Shown: in pieces, positions 20,538 through 34,094 of the stretch
Position numbering within the stretch: the first letter of the stretch is position 1
Layout of the letters: every line of letters starts with the position of its first letter
Assembly: GCA_018660825.1 (NCBI GenBank)
Contig: JABJJO010000047.1
Coordinates: 33,566-97,565 of the forward strand
Length of the DNA stretch: 64,000 nt
Source of the DNA: Planctomycetaceae bacterium
GTDB taxonomy: Bacteria; Planctomycetota; Planctomycetia; Pirellulales; Pirellulaceae
Direction: 5' to 3'
Position numbers and translations under genes: made by a program
Notes under the pieces: model-generated
The model's input: only the letters and a program-made list of their open reading frames with translations
Told to the model about the DNA's origin: nothing
Databases searched by the model: none

Positions 20538-21278
20538 TTATGATGAGCAAGGCTTGGTGTTCTGTTGCCAGGCGGCGAGCAATTCTTCGACAATTTGGTC
20601 GATCGGGTGGTCGATATTAATTTGGGCCATCACGATAGGACCCTGACCTCGCATTCTCTTAGCATCAGCTTCCATTACATTGAGGTCGGCACTAACGGCT
20701 TCAGCCAAGTCGATTTTATTGATTACCAGTAGGTCTGATTGGGTGATCCCAGGTCCCCCTTTACGTGGCACTTTATCACCCCCGGCAACATCAATAACGT
20801 AAATCGTATAATCCGCTAGCTCGCGGCTAAAATCGGCAGCCAGATTATCTCCCCCCGACTCGACAAATAAAAGTTCCGGCGTATGTAGTTGTGAAAGTTC
20901 TTCAAGGGCAAGTAAGTTATGTGAGATATCTTCGCGAATGGCAGCATGGGGGCACCCGCCGGTCTCTACGGCGCGAATGCGGTCCGCTTGCAATGCATCG
21001 TTTCGCAAAAGGAATTCTGCATCTTCTTGTGTGAAAATATCGTTTGTGACCACAGCGAGATTATGTTTATCGCGGAGTGCCTTGCAGAGTGAAAGCAACA
21101 AGGCTGTTTTCCCACTTCCGACAGGACCACCAATACCAATAGTAAACGCTCGCTGTTGATAGTCTCGATTAGCACCCGGCAAAGCGCGTTGATCAAAGTA
21201 ACCGGGATTTTCAAGTGGTTCATGTGAGTGTGTTGCACCGTGCGAATGGTCATGGCTATGGTCGTGGTCATCATGCAT
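20538..21278 (-). CDS. ureG: urease accessory GTPase UreG with His-rich N-terminus
   Basis: A 246-residue SIMIBI GTPase. The P-loop [11 protein letters not shown] lies near residues 50-60, with [15 protein letters not shown], the CPH metal site in [24 protein letters not shown] and the nucleotide base motif NKID. UreG binds GTP and nickel and, with UreF and UreD/UreH, delivers nickel to the urease active site. About 40 residues precede the canonical start, with eight histidines in the first nineteen. Such tails store or bind nickel, and no ureE gene was found here. It lies 65 bases downstream of ureF. Confidence 0.97.
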
Positions 21279-21343
21279 GATTGTAGTGGCCTATCTGTGG
21301 AAGCTGCAATAAAAGATTGTTGTGGATTTAAGATATTCCAAGG

Positions 21344-22021
21344 CTAACTCTGAAACAGCCTTGAGTAGAGTCGGTCGTGGTTGGATTGTAAGATATCGAG
21401 GATGGGTGAGGTTTGTGCGATGTCACTCAAGCAATACGCCTCACAGTGTTTTAGCACTTGTGTAAATTCGTTGTCAAGTTGGGGCCAAATGGATTGTGCG
21501 GCTAAGGGGCCGATAATATTTAGTCGTATCGCACTGGAAATCAAATCGCGGATCATGGTGAATAGAAACAACTCCGCACCGTCGTGAAGAGAAATTCCAA
21601 GTGAGCGAGTGACATATCCGAACGTCGGGAGTAGATGCCCCCGGATCGTCTTATTGCGAACTTGCGCCCGTAATAGCTCGACGGTATCGCAGTCAAACGC
21701 TTGGCAACAAGTCGCTAGAAATGCTTGACCCTGCCGTAAGCTCGCGCGCCTAGCCACATGATTACCAAGCAGGGCGTGACATAGGTTGTCTAATTCAACG
21801 GTAGTTTGAATTTGTTGATGAGCGGCCACAAATTGTGGCAGGCTGTAATGACGACTTTGGCGAATTTGTGTGACCAATAGATCCAAAAGTTGCCCAGGCT
21901 GTTTTAATTCGCCCCATTGATAGAGTGCTTCAAGACCGCCGGAATGTGCAAATCCTCCACTTGGGAATGACGAATCGGCCAATTGGTACAGTAATCGTGT
22001 ATTAGAAGATGTTTGGGACAC
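21344..22021 (-). CDS. ureF: urease accessory protein UreF
   Basis: A 225-residue all-helical protein. The N-terminus LLYQLADSSFPSGGFAHSGGLEALYQWG is the conserved UreF start (LxxxDSxFPxGxFxHSxGLE), and RQGQAFLATC and PTFGYVTRSLGI match internal family stretches. UreF bridges UreD and UreG in the activation complex of the urease apoenzyme and gates GTP hydrolysis. First gene of the minus-strand accessory operon, divergent from the porin and the transporter/urease operon. Confidence 0.93.
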   Translation of the reverse strand: MSQTSSNTRLLYQLADSSFPSGGFAHSGGLEALYQWGELKQPGQLLDLLVTQIRQSRHYSLPQFVAAHQQIQTTVELDNLCHALLGNHVARRASLRQGQAFLATCCQAFDCDTVELLRAQVRNKTIRGHLLPTFGYVTRSLGISLHDGAELFLFTMIRDLISSAIRLNIIGPLAAQSIWPQLDNEFTQVLKHCEAYCLSDIAQTSPILDILQSNHDRLYSRLFQS

Positions 22022-22148: not shown

Positions 22149-22320
22149 TCGCAATCAATTTGCAAGAGTTGATGGCGACAACGATTTAGTAGATGAACCG
22201 AGTGTTGCATTATCTTAGGCGATGATATTGTCTCAAACTAGATATCAATGGAATGTATTTGAAAGGGAATCAGAGATAGCGGCACTTAGCGTTATTTTTG
22301 TATTTAAATGGAGTTGTAAT

Positions 22321-23481
22321 ATGAAAAGGTTACTATTTACGGGAATGTTGTTAGCTTTAGGGATGTTTGTGTTCACGCAAACAACTCAGGCCCAAATCGA
22401 ATTTAGTGAATTTACCGGTACACGTCTTGTGACTTACACGCAAGATGATGCGAATGAAAGCACGTTCAAAGATTGGGTCGGTGAAATGAATGTTGGGGCG
22501 GGACTTCGCACAAGCATGAATTCGTCTAAACCTCAAGGTGCTGCTCGTACATATGATTTCAATCTAGATAATGTTCGTTTGTATGTTAGCAGCAGTGGTC
22601 ATGACGTGATTACTTTGGAATTCAACATGGACATAAACAACGCTCAAGGATTTGGTACTGGTGCTGAAGCAGGCGAAGCTCGTGTTCTCGATGCCATCGC
22701 AAAATTCAAGCTCAGCGATGCTGTCAATATCTGGATTGGCCGCATGTTACCTCCCAGCGATCGAAGTAATCTAAGCGGACCTTACTACTTGAATGCTTGG
22801 ACATTTCCTTGGGTTCAATTTGGATACCACAATATTTTCCAAGGTCGTGATGACGGTATTTTGGCCCATGGGAAGCTTAAGGAAGGCCGATTTGAATATG
22901 CAATTGGTGCTTTTGAAGGTAAAGATGCAGCCGCAGGAAGCAATGACAACATGATGGTTGCTGGACGGCTGAACGTTAATCTTCTTGATGTTGAAGAAGG
23001 GTATTACAACTCTAGTACATATTTTGGTTCGATGGATATCCTAACTATAGGATTTGCATTCCAAAGCCAAAATGGTACGGATGTTGCTGGTGCTGGAGAT
23101 TACGATGGGTACAGTTTTGATGTACTATACGAACGTCCAACTGAAGATGGCGGTGCTATTACCGTTGAAGGTGCATGGTACGATTTCGAAGGTACTAATT
23201 CCTCCAATGATGGTAACAGCTATTTCGTCATGGTTTCACGTATGACCGGTTCGGACATTGCAATTGGCCCAGCTTCAGGCCGAGTGATTCCTTACTATCG
23301 CCATCAAAACTTTGATCGCGATGCTGGTGCTGCAACGGATAAAATTCGTAGCAACGACTGGGGATTACACCTTGTCATGAACGGACATAATTCACGTTTT
23401 ACTCTGGAATACTCAAAATCTGAGACTGTTTCAGGTAGTTCAACAGAAGACGTTCGTTTTGGGTATCAACTACAGTTCTAA
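22321..23481 (+). CDS. outer-membrane porin (phosphate-selective-porin-like)
   Basis: A 386-residue protein from the ATG preceded by TGGAG; the ORF start 33 codons earlier adds non-signal sequence. A clear signal peptide (MKRLLFTGMLLALGMFVF, cut after TTQAQ) is followed by a mature chain of alternating beta strands with many Gly, Asn and aromatic girdle residues, ending in VRFGYQLQF, a typical C-terminal strand closing on Phe. It resembles OprP/OprO-type porins. Location between urease and urea-transporter genes suggests passage of urea or amides across the outer membrane, but that is inference. It has its own terminator. Confidence 0.75.
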   Translation: MKRLLFTGMLLALGMFVFTQTTQAQIEFSEFTGTRLVTYTQDDANESTFKDWVGEMNVGAGLRTSMNSSKPQGAARTYDFNLDNVRLYVSSSGHDVITLEFNMDINNAQGFGTGAEAGEARVLDAIAKFKLSDAVNIWIGRMLPPSDRSNLSGPYYLNAWTFPWVQFGYHNIFQGRDDGILAHGKLKEGRFEYAIGAFEGKDAAAGSNDNMMVAGRLNVNLLDVEEGYYNSSTYFGSMDILTIGFAFQSQNGTDVAGAGDYDGYSFDVLYERPTEDGGAITVEGAWYDFEGTNSSNDGNSYFVMVSRMTGSDIAIGPASGRVIPYYRHQNFDRDAGAATDKIRSNDWGLHLVMNGHNSRFTLEYSKSETVSGSSTEDVRFGYQLQF

Positions 23482-23515
23482 GAGTAGTTATATTTCCCCC
23501 TTGATTCGTCAAAAG

Positions 23516-23554
23516 GGGCAGTTGCGGAGTTTTTCGCAACTGCCCTTTTTTTTT
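23516..23554 (+). terminator. rho-independent terminator after the porin gene
   Basis: GGGCAGTTGCG pairs perfectly with CGCAACTGCCC around the loop GAGTTTTT, followed by nine T. It separates the porin transcript from the sigma-54-driven urt-ure operon that starts about 145 bases later. Confidence 0.92.
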
Positions 23555-23698
23555 GCACTAAGCTCAAGCCTTGCATGTATTCTAGGCAAAGCCGAAATCG
23601 AACAAGACTTCCGGTATTATTTTTAGGAAAAAATAAACGGCGTAAACTCTTTAATAAATGACAGTTGCATTTGTTGCAGGTCTTTTTGTCGGTGCAAT

Positions 23699-23715
23699 TT
23701 GGCACGGTATTTGCA
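23699..23715 (+). promoter_or_regulatory. sigma-54 (RpoN) promoter of the urt-ure operon
   Basis: TTGGCACGGTATTTGCA matches every defined position of the sigma-54 consensus YTGGCACGRNNNTTGCW, with the GG and GC doublets correctly spaced. It lies 95 bases before the urtA ATG and 145 bases after the porin terminator. Transcription would begin about a dozen bases downstream, near the small inverted repeat GTTTGTTTATACAAAC (23722-23737). Sigma-54 promoters need an enhancer-binding activator; for urea transport this is usually NtrC under nitrogen limitation. No activator site was recognised upstream. Confidence 0.88.
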
Positions 23716-23809
23716 TAATGTGTTTGTTTATACAAACGTGAAATATTATGTAGCCATTGTGTTGATGGCTTTTGTATTGATTTTATTAAATGAAAAGGCG
23801 GGAAGCGTT

Positions 23810-25120
23810 ATGTTGAAGAAGATAAATTTAATGTTGTTTGCTGGGCTAATAGCCACAGTACTTTCGGTTGGTTGTAGTAGTTCTACCACGACGGAATCAT
23901 CATCAAATGAGGTTGAGCTGGAAGATATAGCAAACCAGGGCCTGACGGAAGAGGAAGTGGGATCGGTTAAGATCGGTATCCTGCATTCCCTCAGCGGTAC
24001 GATGGCGATTTCTGAATCGTCCCTAGTCGATGCAGTTCAATTGGCAGTGGACGAGATTAATGCTGCCGGTGGTGTGCTTGGAAAGACGATCGAACCTGTT
24101 GTTGTTGACCCCGCTAGTGACTGGGACTTATTTGCAGAAAAGGCCAAAGAATTGATTGTGACGGAACAAGTGGCAGTGACTTTCGGTTGCTGGACGTCTG
24201 TAAGTCGTAAGTCAGTATTGCCTGTGTTTGAGGATGAAAATGCATTGTTGTTCTATCCCGTTCAATATGAAGGTGAAGAACAATCATTAAATGTCTTTTA
24301 TACGGCCGCTACGCCAAATCAACAGTTGATTCCAGCAGCTCAATATATGATGAGTGAAGCAGGCGGCAGCTGTAAGAAATTCTATTTGCTGGGAACAGAT
24401 TACGTATTCCCACGTACTGCCAATAAAGTACTCAAGGCATTTCTCAAGAGTGAAGGTGTTGCTGATGAAAATATCATCGAAGAATACACACCATTTCACC
24501 ATCAGGAATACCAAACCATCGTTGGTAAAATTAAGGAATTCGCTGCTAGTGGAGATGCTTGTATTCTGTCGACCATCAATGGTGACAGCAACGTACCTTT
24601 CTACAAGGAATTTGCAAACCAAGGTCTTTCTTCCGTGGATTGCCCAATCATGGCTTTCTCTGTTGCCGAAGATGAATTGCGAGCCATGGATGTACCACCA
24701 TTGGTAGGCCACTTGGCTGCTTGGAACTACTTCCAGAGTGTAGATTCTGATTCGAACGCTAAGTTCATCGCAGCGTTCAAGGCCAAGTTTGGTGCAGATC
24801 GAGTTACGGATGACCCGATTGAAGCCGCATATTTTGGCGTCTACGTCTGGGCTGCAGCAGCAGAAAAAGCTGGTAGTTTCGATGTTGATCTGGTTCGTGA
24901 AGCGGTTTACGGTATGGAATTCGACGCTCCCGGTGGTCCTAAAAGGATGCACGAGAGTAATCAACATACTTTGAAGCCTGTGTACATTGGTGAAATTCTA
25001 GAAGACGGACAATTCCGAATTGTTCATGAGAGCGATGGGTTAGTATCCCCAGATTCTTATAGCTCCTATCTGCACGCCGATGGAGATATTCCAGCACCAA
25101 CTGGTGGACCCAAAAAATAG
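23810..25120 (+). CDS. urtA: urea ABC transporter substrate-binding lipoprotein UrtA
   Basis: A 436-residue protein from MLKKINLMLFAGLI. The ORF-track start would overlap the promoter and is rejected. The lipobox LSVGC predicts a lipid anchor, followed by a Ser/Thr linker. The mature part begins KIGILHSLSGTMAISES, then AVDEINAAGGVLGKTIEPVV and VTFGCWTSVSRKSVLPVFE with LLFYPVQYEGEE, all diagnostic of UrtA rather than amino-acid binding proteins. It captures urea (possibly short amides) outside the cytoplasmic membrane and hands it to UrtB/UrtC. First gene of the urt-ure operon. Confidence 0.96.
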   Translation: MLKKINLMLFAGLIATVLSVGCSSSTTTESSSNEVELEDIANQGLTEEEVGSVKIGILHSLSGTMAISESSLVDAVQLAVDEINAAGGVLGKTIEPVVVDPASDWDLFAEKAKELIVTEQVAVTFGCWTSVSRKSVLPVFEDENALLFYPVQYEGEEQSLNVFYTAATPNQQLIPAAQYMMSEAGGSCKKFYLLGTDYVFPRTANKVLKAFLKSEGVADENIIEEYTPFHHQEYQTIVGKIKEFAASGDACILSTINGDSNVPFYKEFANQGLSSVDCPIMAFSVAEDELRAMDVPPLVGHLAAWNYFQSVDSDSNAKFIAAFKAKFGADRVTDDPIEAAYFGVYVWAAAAEKAGSFDVDLVREAVYGMEFDAPGGPKRMHESNQHTLKPVYIGEILEDGQFRIVHESDGLVSPDSYSSYLHADGDIPAPTGGPKK

Positions 25121-25276: not shown

Positions 25277-27655
25277 ATGACGATCATGCGGTTATTTGAA
25301 TTTCGATGTTTGCGCATTGTAGTGTTGTTTGCCTTGTCGCTGATCAGTTGCGTTCTCTGCGCTGAAGATGACAAATTGCGTGCTGTGATGAGCTTGGTCA
25401 GTGCTGACGACGCAGAAATACGTCAGCAAACGCTCAAAGAGTTATCCAATATTGAGGATCCTCGGATTCTTGGATTTTTGGAGGATTACAAGTTGGGGAG
25501 GTTGTTTAGGTTTGAGTCTCAACTGGTTCGGGGTGAAACGCAAAAGGACGAGAATTCTGTCAGCGTAATTCCGTTAGAAGATTTTCTCGATCGGACACCC
25601 GTGCTTGATGCGGCGGGACAACAACACGTTATTATCAAGCGAAATCTTAAGTCATTAATTGTTCCGCGTGCTGATCGTGGATTGTTGCAAAATGCAATTC
25701 TGATTCACACATTACGCTCTGGTAGTGTCAAACAACGCTCGGAAGCTGCTCAACGTCTGGGTACAACACGTCAATTGGAACATCTCCCGCTGTTGCAGAA
25801 GATCGTTGCTCAAGACAAAGCTGCTGAGGTTGTTTATGCTGCTCGGGAAAGCATCGGAATATTGCAACTGCAGGACTCTGCAGCGGAAAAGACCACGATT
25901 CTGAAAGCAGCTAAGGCACTAGGCGAGCTGAAAAGCCTGCGTGGCAAAGCGCGTTTGGAGCAGGAGTTAGAAAAAATTGACGATCGTCTTTTGCAGGGCG
26001 AGCTGATTGATAATGAAATTCGGCTGGCATTGCATACTGAGTATCAGGCGATTGAGCAGTATCATGAGCAAACATCGTTATTGAAAAGCCTATTTAATGG
26101 AATTAGCACCGGTTCTATCCTGATTTTGATTTCCTTGGGGTTGGCCATCGTATTCGGCCAAATGGGAGTGATAAATATGGCCCATGGAGAACTGGTGATG
26201 TTGGGAGCTTATGCAACCTACGTTATGCAATTAAGTTTCGGGCATACTCCGGATGATCCCAACAATTGGTTTTATGTGGCCGCCCTGCCGATGGCATTTA
26301 TAGTAGCAGCGACTGCGGGAATTTTGATTGAGTATTTTGTTGTCCGGCATCTCTATGCCCGCCCGCTGGAATCCTTGTTAGCGACTTGGGGAGTGGGGTT
26401 GATTTTGATTCAGTTCATACGAGCTGGATTTCCTTGGGCCGATTACGATAAGGCAGCATTTCTACCGAACTTTCTTTTGTGGGGAGGCTTTGGAGATAAT
26501 ATTGGTGTCAATGCACCGACTTGGTTAGTGGGAGCGTTTGAGCTGCAGCCAGGACTTGTGGTTCCCTACAACCGAGTGTTTATTATTGTTTTAACGATGG
26601 TCATCGTTGCCACAATTGCGTGGATGATGAAACAGACTCGATTGGGATTACGAATTCGAGCAACGGTTCAGAATCGTGAAACGGCGGCATGCTTAGGTGT
26701 AAAGACAAGGCAAGTCGATCGGATTACGTTTGCGATTGGATCAGGATTGGCTGGTATTGCCGGTTGTGCCTTAACGACGATCGCTGGGGTTACACCGGAT
26801 ATGGGACAAAACTACATTGTTGACTCTTTCTTAGTTGTCGTGACAGGTGGTGTTGGCAAACTTGCTGGGACGGTATCTGCCGGCGGGGGTATCGGCGTGG
26901 TGAATACTTGGTTGGAGACGACAACATTTGGCACAGGGCTGTTTGTAACAGGATTGTTAATGCTTGTAATTGGTAGCGTTGTTCTGATCCGCAAGGTCAG
27001 AAGTTTGAAACAGATGAGCTCTTCGCCTGCTGCTGATTCGCTGCCGTGGTGGAAGCGTTACTACCTGGAAAAGAGCGTTGTTAAAGCAGTTGTAATTTTA
27101 GGCATGGGAGTGATTCTGATGGTGGCTGTTCGCGCCACAGATACTAATAATTACTTATTTATCTACGACGAAGATGTTACCGTCGATGTTGACGATGCGT
27201 TGGTGTTGGTCGATAAGCAAGGCCGATTTCGCATATTCGATTTTATGACAGAAGAGATGCAGGAAAAGTCCGAGTTCCATGTGCCAATGGTTCTAGATCC
27301 AGCAGATTTATCGTTTCGACAACGGACGACCGATATGATCGTGCAGGCAATTAATAGTCAGAATGATTTTGCAATCAGTGCATCATCTAGTGGAACGCGA
27401 ATCGCTCTAGCAGGCGTTGCTGAGTTGAATTTTTCGGATGACATGAATTGGCTGGGTATTGCGGAAAAAGGAACAGAAGGATTTCGTGCAGTACCTCCCA
27501 AATCGACTCGAGAAATTCCTGCATCGACGCGTATCGGTGCAATTCCAGTGCGCACAATTTGGGCCAAAGTACTAATACTCGTGGTAGTCATGGTATTTAT
27601 TCAATGGCGACCGGCTGGGTTATTTCCCCCCCGTGGGAGATCCGCTGATGTCTGA
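25277..27655 (+). CDS. urtB: urea ABC transporter permease UrtB, enlarged
   Basis: A 792-residue protein with a signal-like N-terminus and a helical HEAT-like region to about residue 260, as in other UrtB proteins. The LivH-type permease follows: LFNGISTGSILILISLGLAI, GVINMAHGELVMLGAYATYV, and RATVQNRETAACLGV. Usually the last helix comes soon after a NxWLE stretch. Here about 200 residues intervene (about 555-760): two extra helices and an extracytoplasmic segment of about 145 residues, before the expected IWAKVLILVVVMVFIQWRPA and GLFPPRGR. The permease imports urea with UrtC, UrtD and UrtE. The stop overlaps the next start. Confidence 0.92.
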   Translation: MTIMRLFEFRCLRIVVLFALSLISCVLCAEDDKLRAVMSLVSADDAEIRQQTLKELSNIEDPRILGFLEDYKLGRLFRFESQLVRGETQKDENSVSVIPLEDFLDRTPVLDAAGQQHVIIKRNLKSLIVPRADRGLLQNAILIHTLRSGSVKQRSEAAQRLGTTRQLEHLPLLQKIVAQDKAAEVVYAARESIGILQLQDSAAEKTTILKAAKALGELKSLRGKARLEQELEKIDDRLLQGELIDNEIRLALHTEYQAIEQYHEQTSLLKSLFNGISTGSILILISLGLAIVFGQMGVINMAHGELVMLGAYATYVMQLSFGHTPDDPNNWFYVAALPMAFIVAATAGILIEYFVVRHLYARPLESLLATWGVGLILIQFIRAGFPWADYDKAAFLPNFLLWGGFGDNIGVNAPTWLVGAFELQPGLVVPYNRVFIIVLTMVIVATIAWMMKQTRLGLRIRATVQNRETAACLGVKTRQVDRITFAIGSGLAGIAGCALTTIAGVTPDMGQNYIVDSFLVVVTGGVGKLAGTVSAGGGIGVVNTWLETTTFGTGLFVTGLLMLVIGSVVLIRKVRSLKQMSSSPAADSLPWWKRYYLEKSVVKAVVILGMGVILMVAVRATDTNNYLFIYDEDVTVDVDDALVLVDKQGRFRIFDFMTEEMQEKSEFHVPMVLDPADLSFRQRTTDMIVQAINSQNDFAISASSSGTRIALAGVAELNFSDDMNWLGIAEKGTEGFRAVPPKSTREIPASTRIGAIPVRTIWAKVLILVVVMVFIQWRPAGLFPPRGRSADV

Positions 27656-29888
27656 TTTAAATCTACTGCCAAAATCTAGTCGTGTGACGGATATGCTTGA
27701 TCGCGGCACGGCCGTCATTGATAGCAGCACGCGTGTTACCGCAGTTTTGGTGGCTTTGGTGCTGATACCATTGTTGTGGGCAAATGGAAATATCGAGATA
27801 TCGACGGTTAATATGTTTGGTCGTTATCTTTGCTTTGCGTTGGTTGCCGTTAGCCTGAATTTGTTATGGGGTTACACGGGCATGCTCTGCTTGTGCCAAT
27901 CGCTCTTTTTTGCCTTTGGCGGTTATGCGATGGGGATGTTCCTAGCGCATCATGGTGGTCCAGAAGGAATCGTGGACATTAATAATTGGAAAATGCCCGC
28001 TTGCTTGTACCAAACGTATCCAGGGCAAGTTGGCGAGTCTGAAAAGGATTGGTTAGTCCCTACTTTTTGGAAGCCCTTTTACTGGTTTAGTTCAACGGTC
28101 GTGTTGGGGTTATTACTGCCAGGATTGTTCGCAGCGATTGTTGGATTTTTTGTTTTCCGCAGTCGAGTAAAGGGCGTATTTTTTGCCATTCTCACTCAGG
28201 CTTTAACGCTCGCTGTTTGGCTCGTTTTTAACATGAACGAAACGATGCTGTGCGGAACCAATGGTCTTACGCGTTTCGAATCGGTGGGACCGTTTACTCC
28301 TGAGAATTCTGGTAGCCAATGGACATTGACGCTTGTTGTCACGGGGATATTGAGTGTGCATAGTTATATGCTGATCCGGTGGTTAACGAACACCGTCCGC
28401 GCTAGAAAATTCGCTGTTGAAAAGCACCCTCGCGCAAAAAAACTATTGTTACTGGGGCTTAGTATTGGGATGGCGCTAGCTGGGGGAATGTGGTTTACGG
28501 ATAATGTGACGCGCCAATTTGATTTATATGATCAATTGAAAGACGAACGCGTCCAATTGATTCTGTATATTGCCTCGACCGTTGCACTGCTTGATGTTTA
28601 TTTGTTCTGTCGATATTTGATTCAATCCCGTATTGGTCGAGTCCTAATCGCCGTGAGGGACAACGAACAACGCTTGCGGTTCACAGGCTACAAGCCCTAC
28701 GTATTTAAAGTATTTGTGTTTACCGTTTCCGCCATGATCGCTGGCTTGGCTGGAATGCTGTACGCACCTCAAATGGGAATTTTTACTCCGACAAACCTCG
28801 AAACAAAAGAGTCCATCTTGGTTGTCATTTGGGTTGCCGTTGGCGGTCGCGGAACGTTATCCGGACCCATCGTCGGCGCTCTGTCGGTTAACCTGCTATA
28901 CAATTGGCTTACTAGCGCAGCACCCGATACTTGGCCATTTGTGCAAGGGGCATTGTTTATCTTAGTCGTCCTGGTGATGCCCAACGGCTTAGTCAGCATT
29001 TGGTCATTTTTGATGCGAACCAAACAGCGATTAGGCCAGCCAGATATGTCGCCGTTCGATGTGACACAGCATGCCATAAAAGTAGATGATGCTGCCGATC
29101 GATTGAGTCGCATTGCAACCTTACAGCGTCATCAAACAGACTCGGAAGAAATTCAAGCGGAAATACTCAACGTTGAAAATTTGTCCGTCGTGTTTGATGG
29201 CTTTAAAGCGTTGGATATTGATAAGTTCACATTACAACATTACATGCTACAGGTAATCATTGGACCCAACGGTGCTGGTAAAACGACATTCTGTGATATT
29301 ATCAGCGGTAAAACTCGTTGTACGAGCGGTCGTTTGGAATACCAGCAGCAGGATATTACGAAGCGAGATGAAGCCGCAATAGCGAGAATGGGAATTGGGC
29401 GAAAATTTCAGACGCCGTCTCTTTTTGATAGTCTGACAGTTTACGAAAACATGGAAATTGCGTTACCGAACTGGCAAGGCTTGGGTAGAAATCTTCTCCA
29501 AGATACTTCCACGCAGGAAGACCGTCGTATATTGGAATTGCTGCATCGTGTTGGATTGAACGATCAACGTGATCGACAGGTTAAGTATTTGAGTCATGGG
29601 CAACGGCAATGGCTGGAAATCAGCATGTTGATTCTTTCTGATCCGGTATTATTACTCGTGGATGAACCCGCAGCGGGCTTGACTGATGAAGAGACTGTTT
29701 TGACGGCTGAATTGCTGCTAGAACTGCAGTCTGACCATACGATTATCGTGATCGAGCACGATATGGATTTTGTGAGATTGCTCAATTCGCCAGTTCTCGT
29801 GTTGAATGAAGGTAAAGTTATGGCGTCTGGAACTATGGCAGAAGTACAAGCAGATGAGCGCGTTGTCGAGGCGTATTTGGGTAGATAA
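27648..29888 (+). CDS. urtCD: UrtC-UrtD fusion: urea ABC transporter permease plus ATPase
   Basis: A 746-residue protein starting at ATGTCTGA, eight bases inside urtB. Residues 1 to about 470 are a LivM-type permease (GYTGMLCLCQSLFFAFGGYA; GRVLIAVRDNEQRLRFTGYK) with an extra helix-containing insert before SRIGRVLIA. After a linker, residues about 505-746 are an ABC ATPase with Walker A GPNGAGKTTF (about 537), signature LSHGQRQWLEI (about 647), Walker B LLLVDEPAAGL and IVIEHDMDFV. The sequence between the two is continuous with no stop. Normally urtC and urtD are separate genes. The fusion fixes one ATPase to one permease half. Confidence 0.94.
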   Translation: MSDLNLLPKSSRVTDMLDRGTAVIDSSTRVTAVLVALVLIPLLWANGNIEISTVNMFGRYLCFALVAVSLNLLWGYTGMLCLCQSLFFAFGGYAMGMFLAHHGGPEGIVDINNWKMPACLYQTYPGQVGESEKDWLVPTFWKPFYWFSSTVVLGLLLPGLFAAIVGFFVFRSRVKGVFFAILTQALTLAVWLVFNMNETMLCGTNGLTRFESVGPFTPENSGSQWTLTLVVTGILSVHSYMLIRWLTNTVRARKFAVEKHPRAKKLLLLGLSIGMALAGGMWFTDNVTRQFDLYDQLKDERVQLILYIASTVALLDVYLFCRYLIQSRIGRVLIAVRDNEQRLRFTGYKPYVFKVFVFTVSAMIAGLAGMLYAPQMGIFTPTNLETKESILVVIWVAVGGRGTLSGPIVGALSVNLLYNWLTSAAPDTWPFVQGALFILVVLVMPNGLVSIWSFLMRTKQRLGQPDMSPFDVTQHAIKVDDAADRLSRIATLQRHQTDSEEIQAEILNVENLSVVFDGFKALDIDKFTLQHYMLQVIIGPNGAGKTTFCDIISGKTRCTSGRLEYQQQDITKRDEAAIARMGIGRKFQTPSLFDSLTVYENMEIALPNWQGLGRNLLQDTSTQEDRRILELLHRVGLNDQRDRQVKYLSHGQRQWLEISMLILSDPVLLLVDEPAAGLTDEETVLTAELLLELQSDHTIIVIEHDMDFVRLLNSPVLVLNEGKVMASGTMAEVQADERVVEAYLGR

Positions 29889-29972: not shown

Positions 29973-30668
29973 ATGTTGAGAATTGAACAACTAAGCTTTT
30001 CCTATGGATCGATCAGGACGTTGCGCGAAGTGGACATGGTGATGCAGCCCGGCGAGGTAACATGCATTGTTGGTCGCAATGGCGTTGGGAAAACGACACT
30101 CCTAAAAAATATTATGGGAGTCCTGAAACCCAATAGTGGGTCGATCACGGTTGATGACCGAGTAGTAACGAATATGACGGCCTACAAACGAGCGAGAATT
30201 GGGTTGGGCTTAGTTCCCCAAGGGCGGCAGATATTTCCCCGCATGACGGTCGAAGAAAACTTGTTCGTTGGTCTGGAAGCGTCACCCGTACCAACTCGTA
30301 AGATTCCCGAGTTTGTTTATGATTTGTTCCCGGTTTTGCAAGAAATGAAGGTTCGCATGGGAGGTGACCTCTCGGGCGGGCAACAACAACAATTGGCGAT
30401 CGCAAGAACGCTCGTCGGTAGTCCTAAAGTAATGTTACTTGATGAACCAACTGAGGGAATTCAGCCAAATATTATTCAGTACATCGGCCAGGTGTTACAA
30501 AAACTTGCTCGAGAACAAAATATGACCATTATTCTCGTGGAACAGTACTTAGATTTCGTGCATGAATTTGGCGATCGATTTTATTTGATGAATCGCGGCA
30601 AGTCGGTCGCCGGTGGTACTACCGACGAGCTTACCGCTGAGCTCACGAAGAAATATCTTAGTGTCTAA
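29973..30668 (+). CDS. urtE: urea ABC transporter ATPase UrtE
   Basis: A 231-residue LivF-type ATPase. Walker A is GRNGVGKTTLLKNIMG, the Q-loop region LGLVPQGRQIFPRMTVEEN, the signature LSGGQQQQLAIAR, Walker B VMLLDEPTEGIQPNI and the switch ILVEQYLDFV. LDEPTEGIQPNII is the UrtE variant of the LivF motif. It would pair with the ATPase half of the UrtCD fusion. It follows urtCD after 84 bases and precedes ureD by 24, tying the importer to the urease genes. Confidence 0.95.
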   Translation: MLRIEQLSFSYGSIRTLREVDMVMQPGEVTCIVGRNGVGKTTLLKNIMGVLKPNSGSITVDDRVVTNMTAYKRARIGLGLVPQGRQIFPRMTVEENLFVGLEASPVPTRKIPEFVYDLFPVLQEMKVRMGGDLSGGQQQQLAIARTLVGSPKVMLLDEPTEGIQPNIIQYIGQVLQKLAREQNMTIILVEQYLDFVHEFGDRFYLMNRGKSVAGGTTDELTAELTKKYLSV

Positions 30669-30692
30669 GTTTCTTCTCGCCGGGAGGTGAAA

Positions 30693-31544
30693 ATGACGAC
30701 CATTTGCACTACTGCCCAACAACGATCTGCTATTGGTGGCAAAGGATCTCTAGAGGTTTCTTTTGTCCAAGGTCAATCGGTAGTTACAAAATGTTATGCC
30801 ACGGATCCACTGAAGTTGCTTGTGCCCAAACGTGATAATCGAGCAGCTTGGGCGTACGTGAGTAGTTATGGTGGAGGTATGGTAGGCGGCGATGAAATTG
30901 AGCTCGATGTACAGGTAAATAACAATGCGATTGCCGTGCTAGGGACGCAAGCGTCGACCAAAATATATAAAGACCAAACGGGCCGAGGTTGTAAACAATT
31001 GATTAGGGCGCGAGTGGCCGATCAGGCAATACTCGTTGCGGTCCCTGACCCAGTTACCTGTTATCGTGATGCCGCGTTTGACCAGACGCAGTCCATCTAT
31101 CTGGCAGGAGATGCCTCGTTAGTACTCGTTGATTGGGTTACCAGTGGACGGCGTGATGCGGGTGAAATATGGGATTTTTCTCAATATCGTAGTAGTATTC
31201 AAATATATCGTGATGAGCAACTTCAGTTGCTCGATACAATCTTACTGGATTCCAATGATGGGGCATTGACGGCGGAATATCGATTGGGCCGATTTCATTG
31301 TTTAGCAACGGTTGTTTTGGCGGGTCCCAAAATGGTTGAATTTAGCGAGACGATAATTGCTGAGTTGAAAAAGAAAGAACCAACGCAGCGCGGCCAGTTG
31401 ATTGAGTCGATGAGTCCGTTTGACGATGGGTTCGTACTGAGAATCCTCGGCGAGACAACAGAAATGACTTCCAATCGCCTCAAACTTCGTTTAGGATTTT
31501 TAAAGACACTACTCGATGAAACACCGTGGGATCGTAAATGGTAA
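30693..31544 (+). CDS. ureD: urease accessory protein UreD (UreH)
   Basis: A 283-residue protein from the ATG lying five bases after GGGAGG; the ORF-track GTG overlaps that ribosome site and is rejected. Family stretches include GKGSLEVSF, VSSYGGGMVGGDEIELDV, LGTQASTKIYK, VPDPVTCYRDAAFDQ and VDWVTSGRRDAGEIWDF. UreD binds the urease apoprotein and, with UreF and UreG, forms the nickel delivery complex. It heads the urease part of the operon, upstream of ureAB and ureC. Confidence 0.95.
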   Translation: MTTICTTAQQRSAIGGKGSLEVSFVQGQSVVTKCYATDPLKLLVPKRDNRAAWAYVSSYGGGMVGGDEIELDVQVNNNAIAVLGTQASTKIYKDQTGRGCKQLIRARVADQAILVAVPDPVTCYRDAAFDQTQSIYLAGDASLVLVDWVTSGRRDAGEIWDFSQYRSSIQIYRDEQLQLLDTILLDSNDGALTAEYRLGRFHCLATVVLAGPKMVEFSETIIAELKKKEPTQRGQLIESMSPFDDGFVLRILGETTEMTSNRLKLRLGFLKTLLDETPWDRKW

Positions 31545-31586: not shown

Positions 31587-32348
31587 ATGCACCTGTCACC
31601 ACGCGAAATTGACAAACTGATGCTACACCAAGCGGGATTTCTTGCGCAAAAACGGTTAGCTCGCGGAATTCGACTGAATTACCCAGAAGCCGTCGCTTTA
31701 ATTGCTACCCAAGTCCTCGAAATGATTCGCGATGGTAAAACCGTTGCTGAATTGATGGATCTGGGGCGACAGTTTCTCGGTGTGAACCAAGTCATGTCCG
31801 GAGTGGCCACAATGGTTACTGAAGTGCAGGTCGAGGGTACATTTCCAGATGGCACTAAATTGGTGACTGTCCATCAACCTATTGTTAAGGAACATGGCAA
31901 TTTGGAGTTAGCCTTATATGGTAGTTTTTTGCCTGTGCCGGAACTTGATCTTTTTTCTGATGCTCAACAAGATATGACGCCGGGTAAGACGCTAGTGGCC
32001 GCTGGCGAAATTATCTTGAACGAAGGACGTGAGTCAACGGCTTTAGAGATTACCAATACTGGGGATCGACCGATCCAAGTTGGCAGCCACTATCATTTTG
32101 TCGAAACCAATCCGGCGTTGCGATTTGATCGTGGTCGTGCCTACGGGCAACGGTTGGATATTCCGGCAGGTACAGCTGTTCGTTTTGAGCCCGGCGAAAC
32201 GAAGACGGTTGAATTGGTGCCAATTGCTGGAAAACAGATAATACGAGGTGGCAATAATCTTGCTGATGGTCCAATCAGCGAAGCAGGCAGACAACAAGCT
32301 CTACAACGTGTTGCTGACCAAAACTTCGCAAATGAAATTAATTCCTAA
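31587..32348 (+). CDS. ureAB: urease gamma-beta fusion subunit (UreA-UreB)
   Basis: A 253-residue protein. The first 100 residues are a complete gamma subunit ([50 protein letters not shown]). A linker of about 30 residues leads to a beta subunit ([60 protein letters not shown]). The fused order is like the small subunit of Helicobacter urease. Together with UreC it forms the catalytic enzyme that hydrolyses urea to ammonia and carbamate in the cytoplasm. Confidence 0.97.
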
Positions 32349-32378: not shown

Positions 32379-34094
32379 ATGCCTTATAAAATTAGTCGTA
32401 CTGGATATGCTGAGATTTTTGGAGCCACGGTGGGCGACCGTGTGCAATTAGGCGATACTTCGCTGATTCTCGAAGTTGAAAAAGATCTTACCGTTTACGG
32501 TGACGAATGTAAATTTGGTGGTGGCAAAGTGCTGCGAGATGGGATGGGCCAGGCAACGGGTGTAGCGCAGGAGGATGCGCTCGATTTGGTCATTACCAAT
32601 GCCTTGATCGTTGATTACGACGGTATTTACAAAGCAGACATCGGTGTCAAAAATGGCTGCATCCAAGGAATTGGTAAAGCTGGCAATCCAGATGTGATGG
32701 CTGGAGTTGATGATAACATGGTCGTCGGTGTGACGACCGAAACGATCGCGGGCGAAGGATTGATTTTAACGGCTGGCGGTATCGATACGCATATTCATTT
32801 TATCTGTCCGCAGCAAATCCAAGAAGCGATCGCCAGTGGAGTCACGACGATGCTTGGTGGTGGAACGGGGCCCGCAACGGGTACTTGCGCCACAACCTGC
32901 ACGCCGGGGGCAACGCATATCAGAATGATGTTGCAAGCTACCGATGATATGCCCCTGAATTTTGGATTTTTGGGAAAAGGGAACACTTCGTTACCGGAAG
33001 GATTACAGGAACAAATTATGGCGGGGGCCGTGGGCTTAAAACTTCATGAAGATTGGGGAACGACGCCAGCCTCGATTGACTGTTGTTTGACCGTTGCAGA
33101 GCAATACGATGTGCAAGTCGCTATTCATACCGACACACTCAATGAATCAGGATTTGTCGAACAATCAATTGCAGCACTTAAAGGCCGGACGATTCACACC
33201 TATCACTCTGAAGGTGCTGGGGGGGGACACGCACCGGATATCCTCAAAGTATGCGGTGAAGCGAATGTGCTACCGAGTTCTACAAATCCAACGAGACCCT
33301 TTACTATCAATACGATTGATGAACATCTTGATATGTTAATGGTTTGCCACCACCTTGATAAAAATTTGCCCGAAGATGTTGCCTTTGCCGAAAGCCGTAT
33401 TCGGGGTGAGACAATCGCTGCAGAAGATATTTTGCATGACCTAGGTGCGATCAGTATTATGGGGTCTGATTCGCAAGCGATGGGTCGCGTAGGTGAGGTT
33501 ATTTGTCGGACTTGGCAAACAGCGTGTAAAATGAAGCAACAACGTGGTAGTTTGCCAGAGGATCCAGCAGAGAACGATAATCTTCGCATCAAACGGTATG
33601 TCGCAAAATATACGATTAACCCGGCCTTAGCGCATGGGATGGCGCAACATATAGGATCCGTTACGACCGGAAAATTGGCAGATTTTACACTGTGGAAGCC
33701 AGCCTTTTTCGGAGTGAAGCCAGAGTTAGTTATTAAGGGTGGAGTGATTGCTTGGGCACAAATGGGCGACCCGAATGCATCTATTCCAACGCCTCAGCCA
33801 AGCTATATGCGACCGATGTTTGGTAGTTTTGCCAAAGCGACAGGCCCCACATCGATTGCTTTTGTCAGCCAAACGTGCTTGGATCATGATGTCGCTGGTG
33901 AGTATGGATTGGCGAAGCGACTGGAGGCGGTTGTTGGGTGCCGTAGTGTTACTAAGAAGGATATGCAGCTCAATGATTTGACGCCAGATATTGACGTCGA
34001 CCCTGAAACTTTTCAAGTTACAGTGGATGGCGCGGTGATTACTTGTGAGCCCGCTGTAGTATTGCCTTTGGCTCAGCGGTATTCGTTGTTTTAA
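32379..34094 (+). CDS. ureC: urease alpha subunit UreC
   Basis: A 571-residue amidohydrolase at the family's usual length. Nickel and catalytic motifs are intact: [14 protein letters not shown] (two His ligands), [12 protein letters not shown] with the Lys that becomes carbamylated (about 220), [26 protein letters not shown], the mobile flap Cys in MVCHH (about 322) and [13 protein letters not shown] with the Asp ligand. It hydrolyses urea using two nickel ions. Last gene of the transporter/urease operon; no ureE follows, the next gene being an esterase-like gene 66 bases on. Confidence 0.98.

Follow-up and report, generated by a model that had tools for sequence, protein, structure and literature searches.

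A probable sigma-54 promoter with an NtrC-type box before the urea import and urease operon of a planctomycete

The textbook case of nitrogen control by RpoN and NtrC is proteobacterial. Sigma-54 activators of Pirellula were reportedly treated by Studholme and Dixon in 2004. A 2025 survey (PMC12316311), which cites the sigma-54 analysis of Pirellula strain 1 (Studholme and Dixon 2004), assigns the sigma-54 control of amtB, glutamine synthetase and NirB chiefly to Pseudomonadota and that of urease chiefly to alpha- and beta-proteobacteria. It describes NtrB/NtrC as limited in Planctomycetota and, among the sigma-54 targets of Planctomycetia, stresses chaperones, CsrA and others. In the accessible part of PMC2754498, rpoN is mentioned in Rhodopirellula baltica without a link to nitrogen control. 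Here we describe a planctomycete locus at which comparison with related genomes indicates that positions 23699-23715 of the window (the whole 64-kb stretch of DNA analysed) are very probably a working sigma-54 promoter of an NtrC-type nitrogen regulon. The features of the locus are:

20538..22021, minus strand: ureG (20538-21278) and ureF (21344-22021), divergent and outside the sigma-54 unit
22222..23481, plus strand: porin gene, a conserved neighbour upstream of the sigma-54 site; weak ExtI porin match, syntenic in relatives
23511..23550, plus strand: predicted rho-independent terminator behind the porin gene, shielding the urtA promoter; folding energy -28.4 kcal/mol (z -5.7)
23541..23557, plus strand: possible second box TGCCCTTTTTTTTTGCA, weaker than the first and 31 bp (three helical turns) above it
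23572..23588, plus strand: NtrC-type enhancer box TGCATGTATTCTAGGCA (TGC-N11-GCA), 128 bp upstream of the -24 element; dyad found de novo at amtB and present at 10/11 urtA sites
23699..23715, plus strand: predicted sigma-54 promoter with -24/-12 elements TTGGCACGGTATTTGCA; exact consensus, kept in 10/11 related planctomycete urtA loci
23810..25120, plus strand: urtA, urea ABC transporter substrate-binding protein (TIGR03407, 563.7 bits)
25277..27655, plus strand: urtB, permease with a long N-terminal extension (TIGR03409, 358.6 bits; Pfam)
27633..29888, plus strand: urtC-urtD fusion, permease and ATPase (TIGR03408 and TIGR03411, above cut-offs)
29973..30668, plus strand: urtE, ATPase (TIGR03410, 311.4 bits)
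30687..31544, plus strand: ureD, urease accessory protein (PF01774, 181.8 bits)
31587..32348, plus strand: ureA-ureB fusion, urease gamma/beta (NF009671, 340 bits)
32379..34094, plus strand: ureC, urease alpha (TIGR01792, 962 bits)

The sequence-only reading had placed everything from urtA to ureC downstream of the site, on one strand and with short gaps. The gene map confirms this from the urtA ATG (23810) to the ureC stop (34094), with the qualifications that urtC-urtD and ureA-ureB are fused and that ureF and ureG, being upstream on the opposite strand, are not part of the urt-ure unit. The gap between urtA and urtB is 156 bp, urtB and urtCD overlap, and the following gaps are 84, 18, 42 and 30 bp. 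All five UrtABCDE subunits were found, each above its curated cut-off, together with UreA, UreB, UreC, UreD, UreF and UreG of the nickel urease set. The cluster showed no ureE; the N-terminus of UreG is His-rich and may substitute for UreE in nickel handling. The order of divergent ureG-ureF, porin, urtA, urtB, urtC/D, urtE, ureD, ureAB and ureC is kept in the relatives G007 (where the contig ends inside ureC), G009, G040 and G033, and in G077 ureG and ureF sit behind ureC instead. All five relatives have a sigma-54-like site in the porin-urtA gap, that of G077 being weaker and further upstream. Related BBP2-type porin genes (PF07642) lie directly upstream of amtB and a PII gene (L161:9378-10514, L160:10335-11456).

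At 23699-23715 on the plus strand, TTGGCACGGTATTTGCA satisfies every defined position of YTGGCACGRNNNTTGCW, and the earlier claim of a full consensus here is exact in both sequence and coordinates. The site is the sole exact match on either strand of the window, in which 0.02 would be expected by chance (100 dinucleotide shuffles, 2 of which contained one). With up to two mismatches allowed, the window holds 25 sites in comparison with 20.7 expected, so the motif by itself proves little. It is also only moderately surprising because exact TGGCACRNNNNTTGCW sites number ten in the genome (4.94 Mb in 221 contigs), several of them intragenic. Beyond the motif match, it is position and conservation that make this a strong candidate. 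TGGCAC-N5-TTGC is present with exact spacing upstream of urtA, 94 bp separate the site from the ATG, and transcription would be expected to start near 23727. A regulatory leader hairpin was considered and rejected, as 23724-23812 folds no better than shuffled sequences, and Rfam gave no leader RNA. Its sole match, 5_ureB_sRNA (RF02514, 123.8 bits) at 32532-32826 on the minus strand, is antisense to ureC and is probably a cross-match from the conserved urease alpha coding sequence.

Conservation was scored in 350 bp upstream of orthologous starts, with 200 dinucleotide shuffles each. Of 11 related planctomycete urtA loci, 10 have a sigma-54-type site at P < 0.05 (combined P 4e-10). Some of the urtA sequences are near copies of one another, which brings the effective count of lineages down from 11 to about 8-9. 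These sites lie mostly 85-153 bp from the start, in flanks that have otherwise diverged; several are imperfect (TGGCAT, CGGCAC, TGGAAC), and those of G077 and G063 are weak or distant. None of 16 distant planctomycete urtA genes (UrtA about 45% identity) had a site by the same scoring. Sites of this type also precede narK in 9/15 cases (two of the nine being this genome and its sister), and 17 of 26 amtB upstream regions reach the smallest attainable P. In the present genome such sites, exact or nearly so, lie in front of amtB (TGGCACGCCTTTTGCG), narK-nirB (TGGCACGCTGTTTGCA) and the divergently oriented genes for nitrate reductase (TGGTACGAGGTTTGCA); its glnA was rejected as a regulon member, a strong site not having been found just upstream. 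An exact consensus lies before groES-groEL and an Hsp20 gene as well (L010 on C102 and L011 on C107), there without NtrC-type boxes, and these sites fit the chaperone enrichment reported for Planctomycetia (PMC12316311).

The conserved upstream sites that the sequence-only reading had suggested looking for in related genomes were thus present, and a conserved NtrC-type box emerged with them. In an unbiased de novo dyad search upstream of 17 amtB sigma-54 sites (260 bp each), TGC-N11-GCA was the clear top dyad (15/17, P 2e-20 against mononucleotide shuffles). The enterobacterial NtrC box has this geometry. Applied to the other sets without refitting, the pattern occurs at 10/11 urtA sites and 7/9 narK sites, with 0-4 matches for the other spacings from 4 to 19 and an average below one in shuffles. 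Controls were flat, with 1/30 and 3/30 among 60 unrelated gene upstream regions, 2/16 at distant urtA, and 0/6 at other sigma-54-like sites of this genome, including groES and hsp20. Most boxes are found 95-175 bp above the -24 element. Several form pairs with a spacing of 21-22 or 30-31 bp, equal to two or three helical turns, but spacings of 13, 19, 24 and 29 bp occur as well. Between the two facing sigma-54 sites of the divergent nitrate-assimilation genes (L163:7816-8413) there is a box pair 21 bp apart, one of the two mismatched. This genome's amtB has a box with one mismatch and no exact one, and at urtA the second box TGCCCTTTTTTTTTGCA overlaps the T-run of the terminator and may be a chance occurrence. 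Boxes at enhancer distance are shared by nitrogen-assimilation targets: amtB, narK-nirB, urt-ure and, in one relative, glutamine synthetase.

Searching for the composite of a box, 95-125 bp and TGGCAC-N5-TTGC returned one occurrence in the whole genome, at urtA. The composite was found in 55 of 119 family genomes and was commoner than a reversed control. Of 30 composite loci that were retrieved, about eight are in front of amtB genes, one precedes a glutamine synthetase gene and one belongs to a narK promoter; the remainder, intragenic or before unrelated genes, are probably due to chance.

The arrangement suggests that RpoN-polymerase would be held at 23699-23715 as a closed complex. Under nitrogen limitation, the presumed signal, an NtrC-type activator bound at TGC-N11-GCA boxes about 110-160 bp upstream would open the complex at the expense of ATP, using the box at 23572-23588 and perhaps that at 23541-23557 too. 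A single transcript, urtABCDE-ureDABC, would then provide high-affinity urea import and hydrolysis to ammonia. As the same box-plus-promoter layout precedes amtB, the nitrate assimilation genes and at least one relative's glutamine synthetase, urt-ure appears as one target of a regulon, and an NtrC-style nitrogen-starvation switch probably exists in planctomycetes. The original proposal that urea import and hydrolysis are jointly under an RpoN activator gains support at the sequence level from rpoN, the encoded activators, the glnB by glnD, and the conserved sites and box.

A lack of rpoN, which would have counted against the sequence-only reading, is not what the genome shows: it encodes one complete rpoN. 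The 492-aa product has the AID, the core-binding and the DNA-binding domain as well as the RpoN box ARRTISKYR. The genome also encodes several PII proteins, with a glnB adjoining glnD, and has three amtB matches, one of them a contig-end fragment. As for the NtrC-like activator that had been anticipated, five clear sigma-54 activators are present, but none reaches the curated ntrC cut-off. The equivalog TIGR01818 requires 558.6 bits, and the proteins encoded on contigs C143, C122 and C68 score 409.5, 384.8 and 362.8 bits; we accordingly call them NtrC-like and none of them NtrC. No activator gene is encoded near the urt-ure operon. C143 and C122 encode REC-AAA-Fis proteins with a partner kinase, and the C68 protein is a receiver-less AAA-Fis protein.

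Between the main candidates, sequence features lead us to lean slightly towards the C68 protein as the activator. Among the five activators, it has the HTH that matches the ntrC model most closely (39.6 bits, in comparison with 27.7 for the C143 regulator), and the NtrC-like recognition helix of its type, GINRNTLHKK, is identical in all 28 readable orthologues. The alternative is that the same promoter is served by the C143 two-component pair, a REC-AAA-Fis protein of 473 aa and a soluble histidine kinase encoded next to it, acting as an ordinary NtrB/NtrC analogue. We regard this as possible though rather doubtful. The pair has the expected architecture with the kinase gene adjoining, its whole-protein ntrC score is the highest, and its HTH and tail fit the solved NtrC domain 1ntc best. 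The 1ntc chain carries alanines at NtrC DNA-contact positions, presumably those of the triple-Ala mutant, and these would penalise C68 in the comparison. The C143-type recognition helix, however, varies (GARTVYRK, GERTLYRK, GSRTLYRR) though the box is conserved, and G007 and G023, both incomplete genomes, are without a detectable C143 orthologue yet retain sites or boxes. G030, which is without a C68-type gene, has no composite match; the presence pattern across these three genomes is no more than suggestive, because G007 and G023 are incomplete. Phylogenetic profiling is nearly uninformative, since both types are almost universal among the relatives (C68-type in 59/60 genomes, C143-type in 58/60). 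If the C68 protein is indeed the activator, nitrogen status must arrive otherwise than through a receiver, e.g., by direct PII contact or a trans-acting inhibitor. More tentatively, in Pirellulaceae and their order an NtrC-type regulon may be run by a receiver-less AAA-Fis protein of the C68 type and not by a phosphorylated response regulator.

Whichever protein acts at the box, the site could be real and yet not the principal or sole promoter, with most transcription coming from one of sigma-70 type or from an internal one and with ure partly uncoupled from urt. The 156-bp gap after urtA would leave room for this reading, and ureF and ureG, on which urease maturation depends, are not part of the unit and show no strong sigma-54 site: the best sigma-54-like score in the ureF-porin gap is only 8.6 of 10.9. 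We nevertheless think it unlikely, as gene order and short gaps are kept in relatives and the plus strand of the porin-urtA gap has no sigma-70-like match in a promoter scan, albeit one that does not model planctomycete sigma-70 promoters. The strong porin terminator stands upstream of the 23699-23715 site. A chance match without function is very improbable: against the ten exact genome sites and the 2% of window shuffles that hold a match stand position-specific conservation amid diverged flanks, an independent TGC-N11-GCA box and the single genome-wide composite match.

In the UrtA tree the planctomycete copies form a group with Poribacteria and a small number of others (98/97), and the urt-ure operon is present in only some of the relatives, so that it looks sporadic or mobile. 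Poribacteria urtA copies (about 80% identical) did not show a strong sigma-54 site, and within this sample the full nitrogen module appears in planctomycete operon copies only. Fibrobacterota urtA genes (L102, L116, L123, L129, L131) have a conserved TGGCAC....(A/C)TTGCT 117-185 bp upstream of the aligned start. The TGC-N11-GCA box was not found at these genes, which are consequently not counted as NtrC support, hinting at a different activator.

In comparison with known systems, the locus resembles the proteobacterial NtrC/RpoN regulon (glnA, amtB, nas, urease) in its -24/-12 promoter, in the same target functions, and in TGC-N11-GCA boxes about 100-175 bp upstream that form helically phased pairs. 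It differs in being planctomycete, in having no activator at the ntrC cut-off and a favoured activator without a receiver, and in a glnA without a nearby site. As a UrtABCDE and nickel urease cluster it has all transporter and structural subunits, with importer and urease genes adjacent, whereas the urtC-urtD and ureA-ureB fusions, the divergent ureFG, the lack of a visible ureE and the porin in front set it apart. That urea, ammonium and nitrate genes share a conserved box-plus-promoter module argues for a comparable regulon in planctomycetes. As far as we have checked, the mechanism is of a known kind and its planctomycete presence and regulon are new, with priority for parts uncertain in view of Studholme and Dixon (2004). 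The module gives the exact bases to mutate, and the activator is narrowed to two main candidate genes. Our analysis shares with the Planctomycetia sigma-54 survey (PMC12316311) the phylum, the in silico promoter approach and groES-type targets; unlike there, amtB, narK-nirB and urt-ure, and glutamine synthetase in one relative, carry sigma-54 sites here in planctomycetes.
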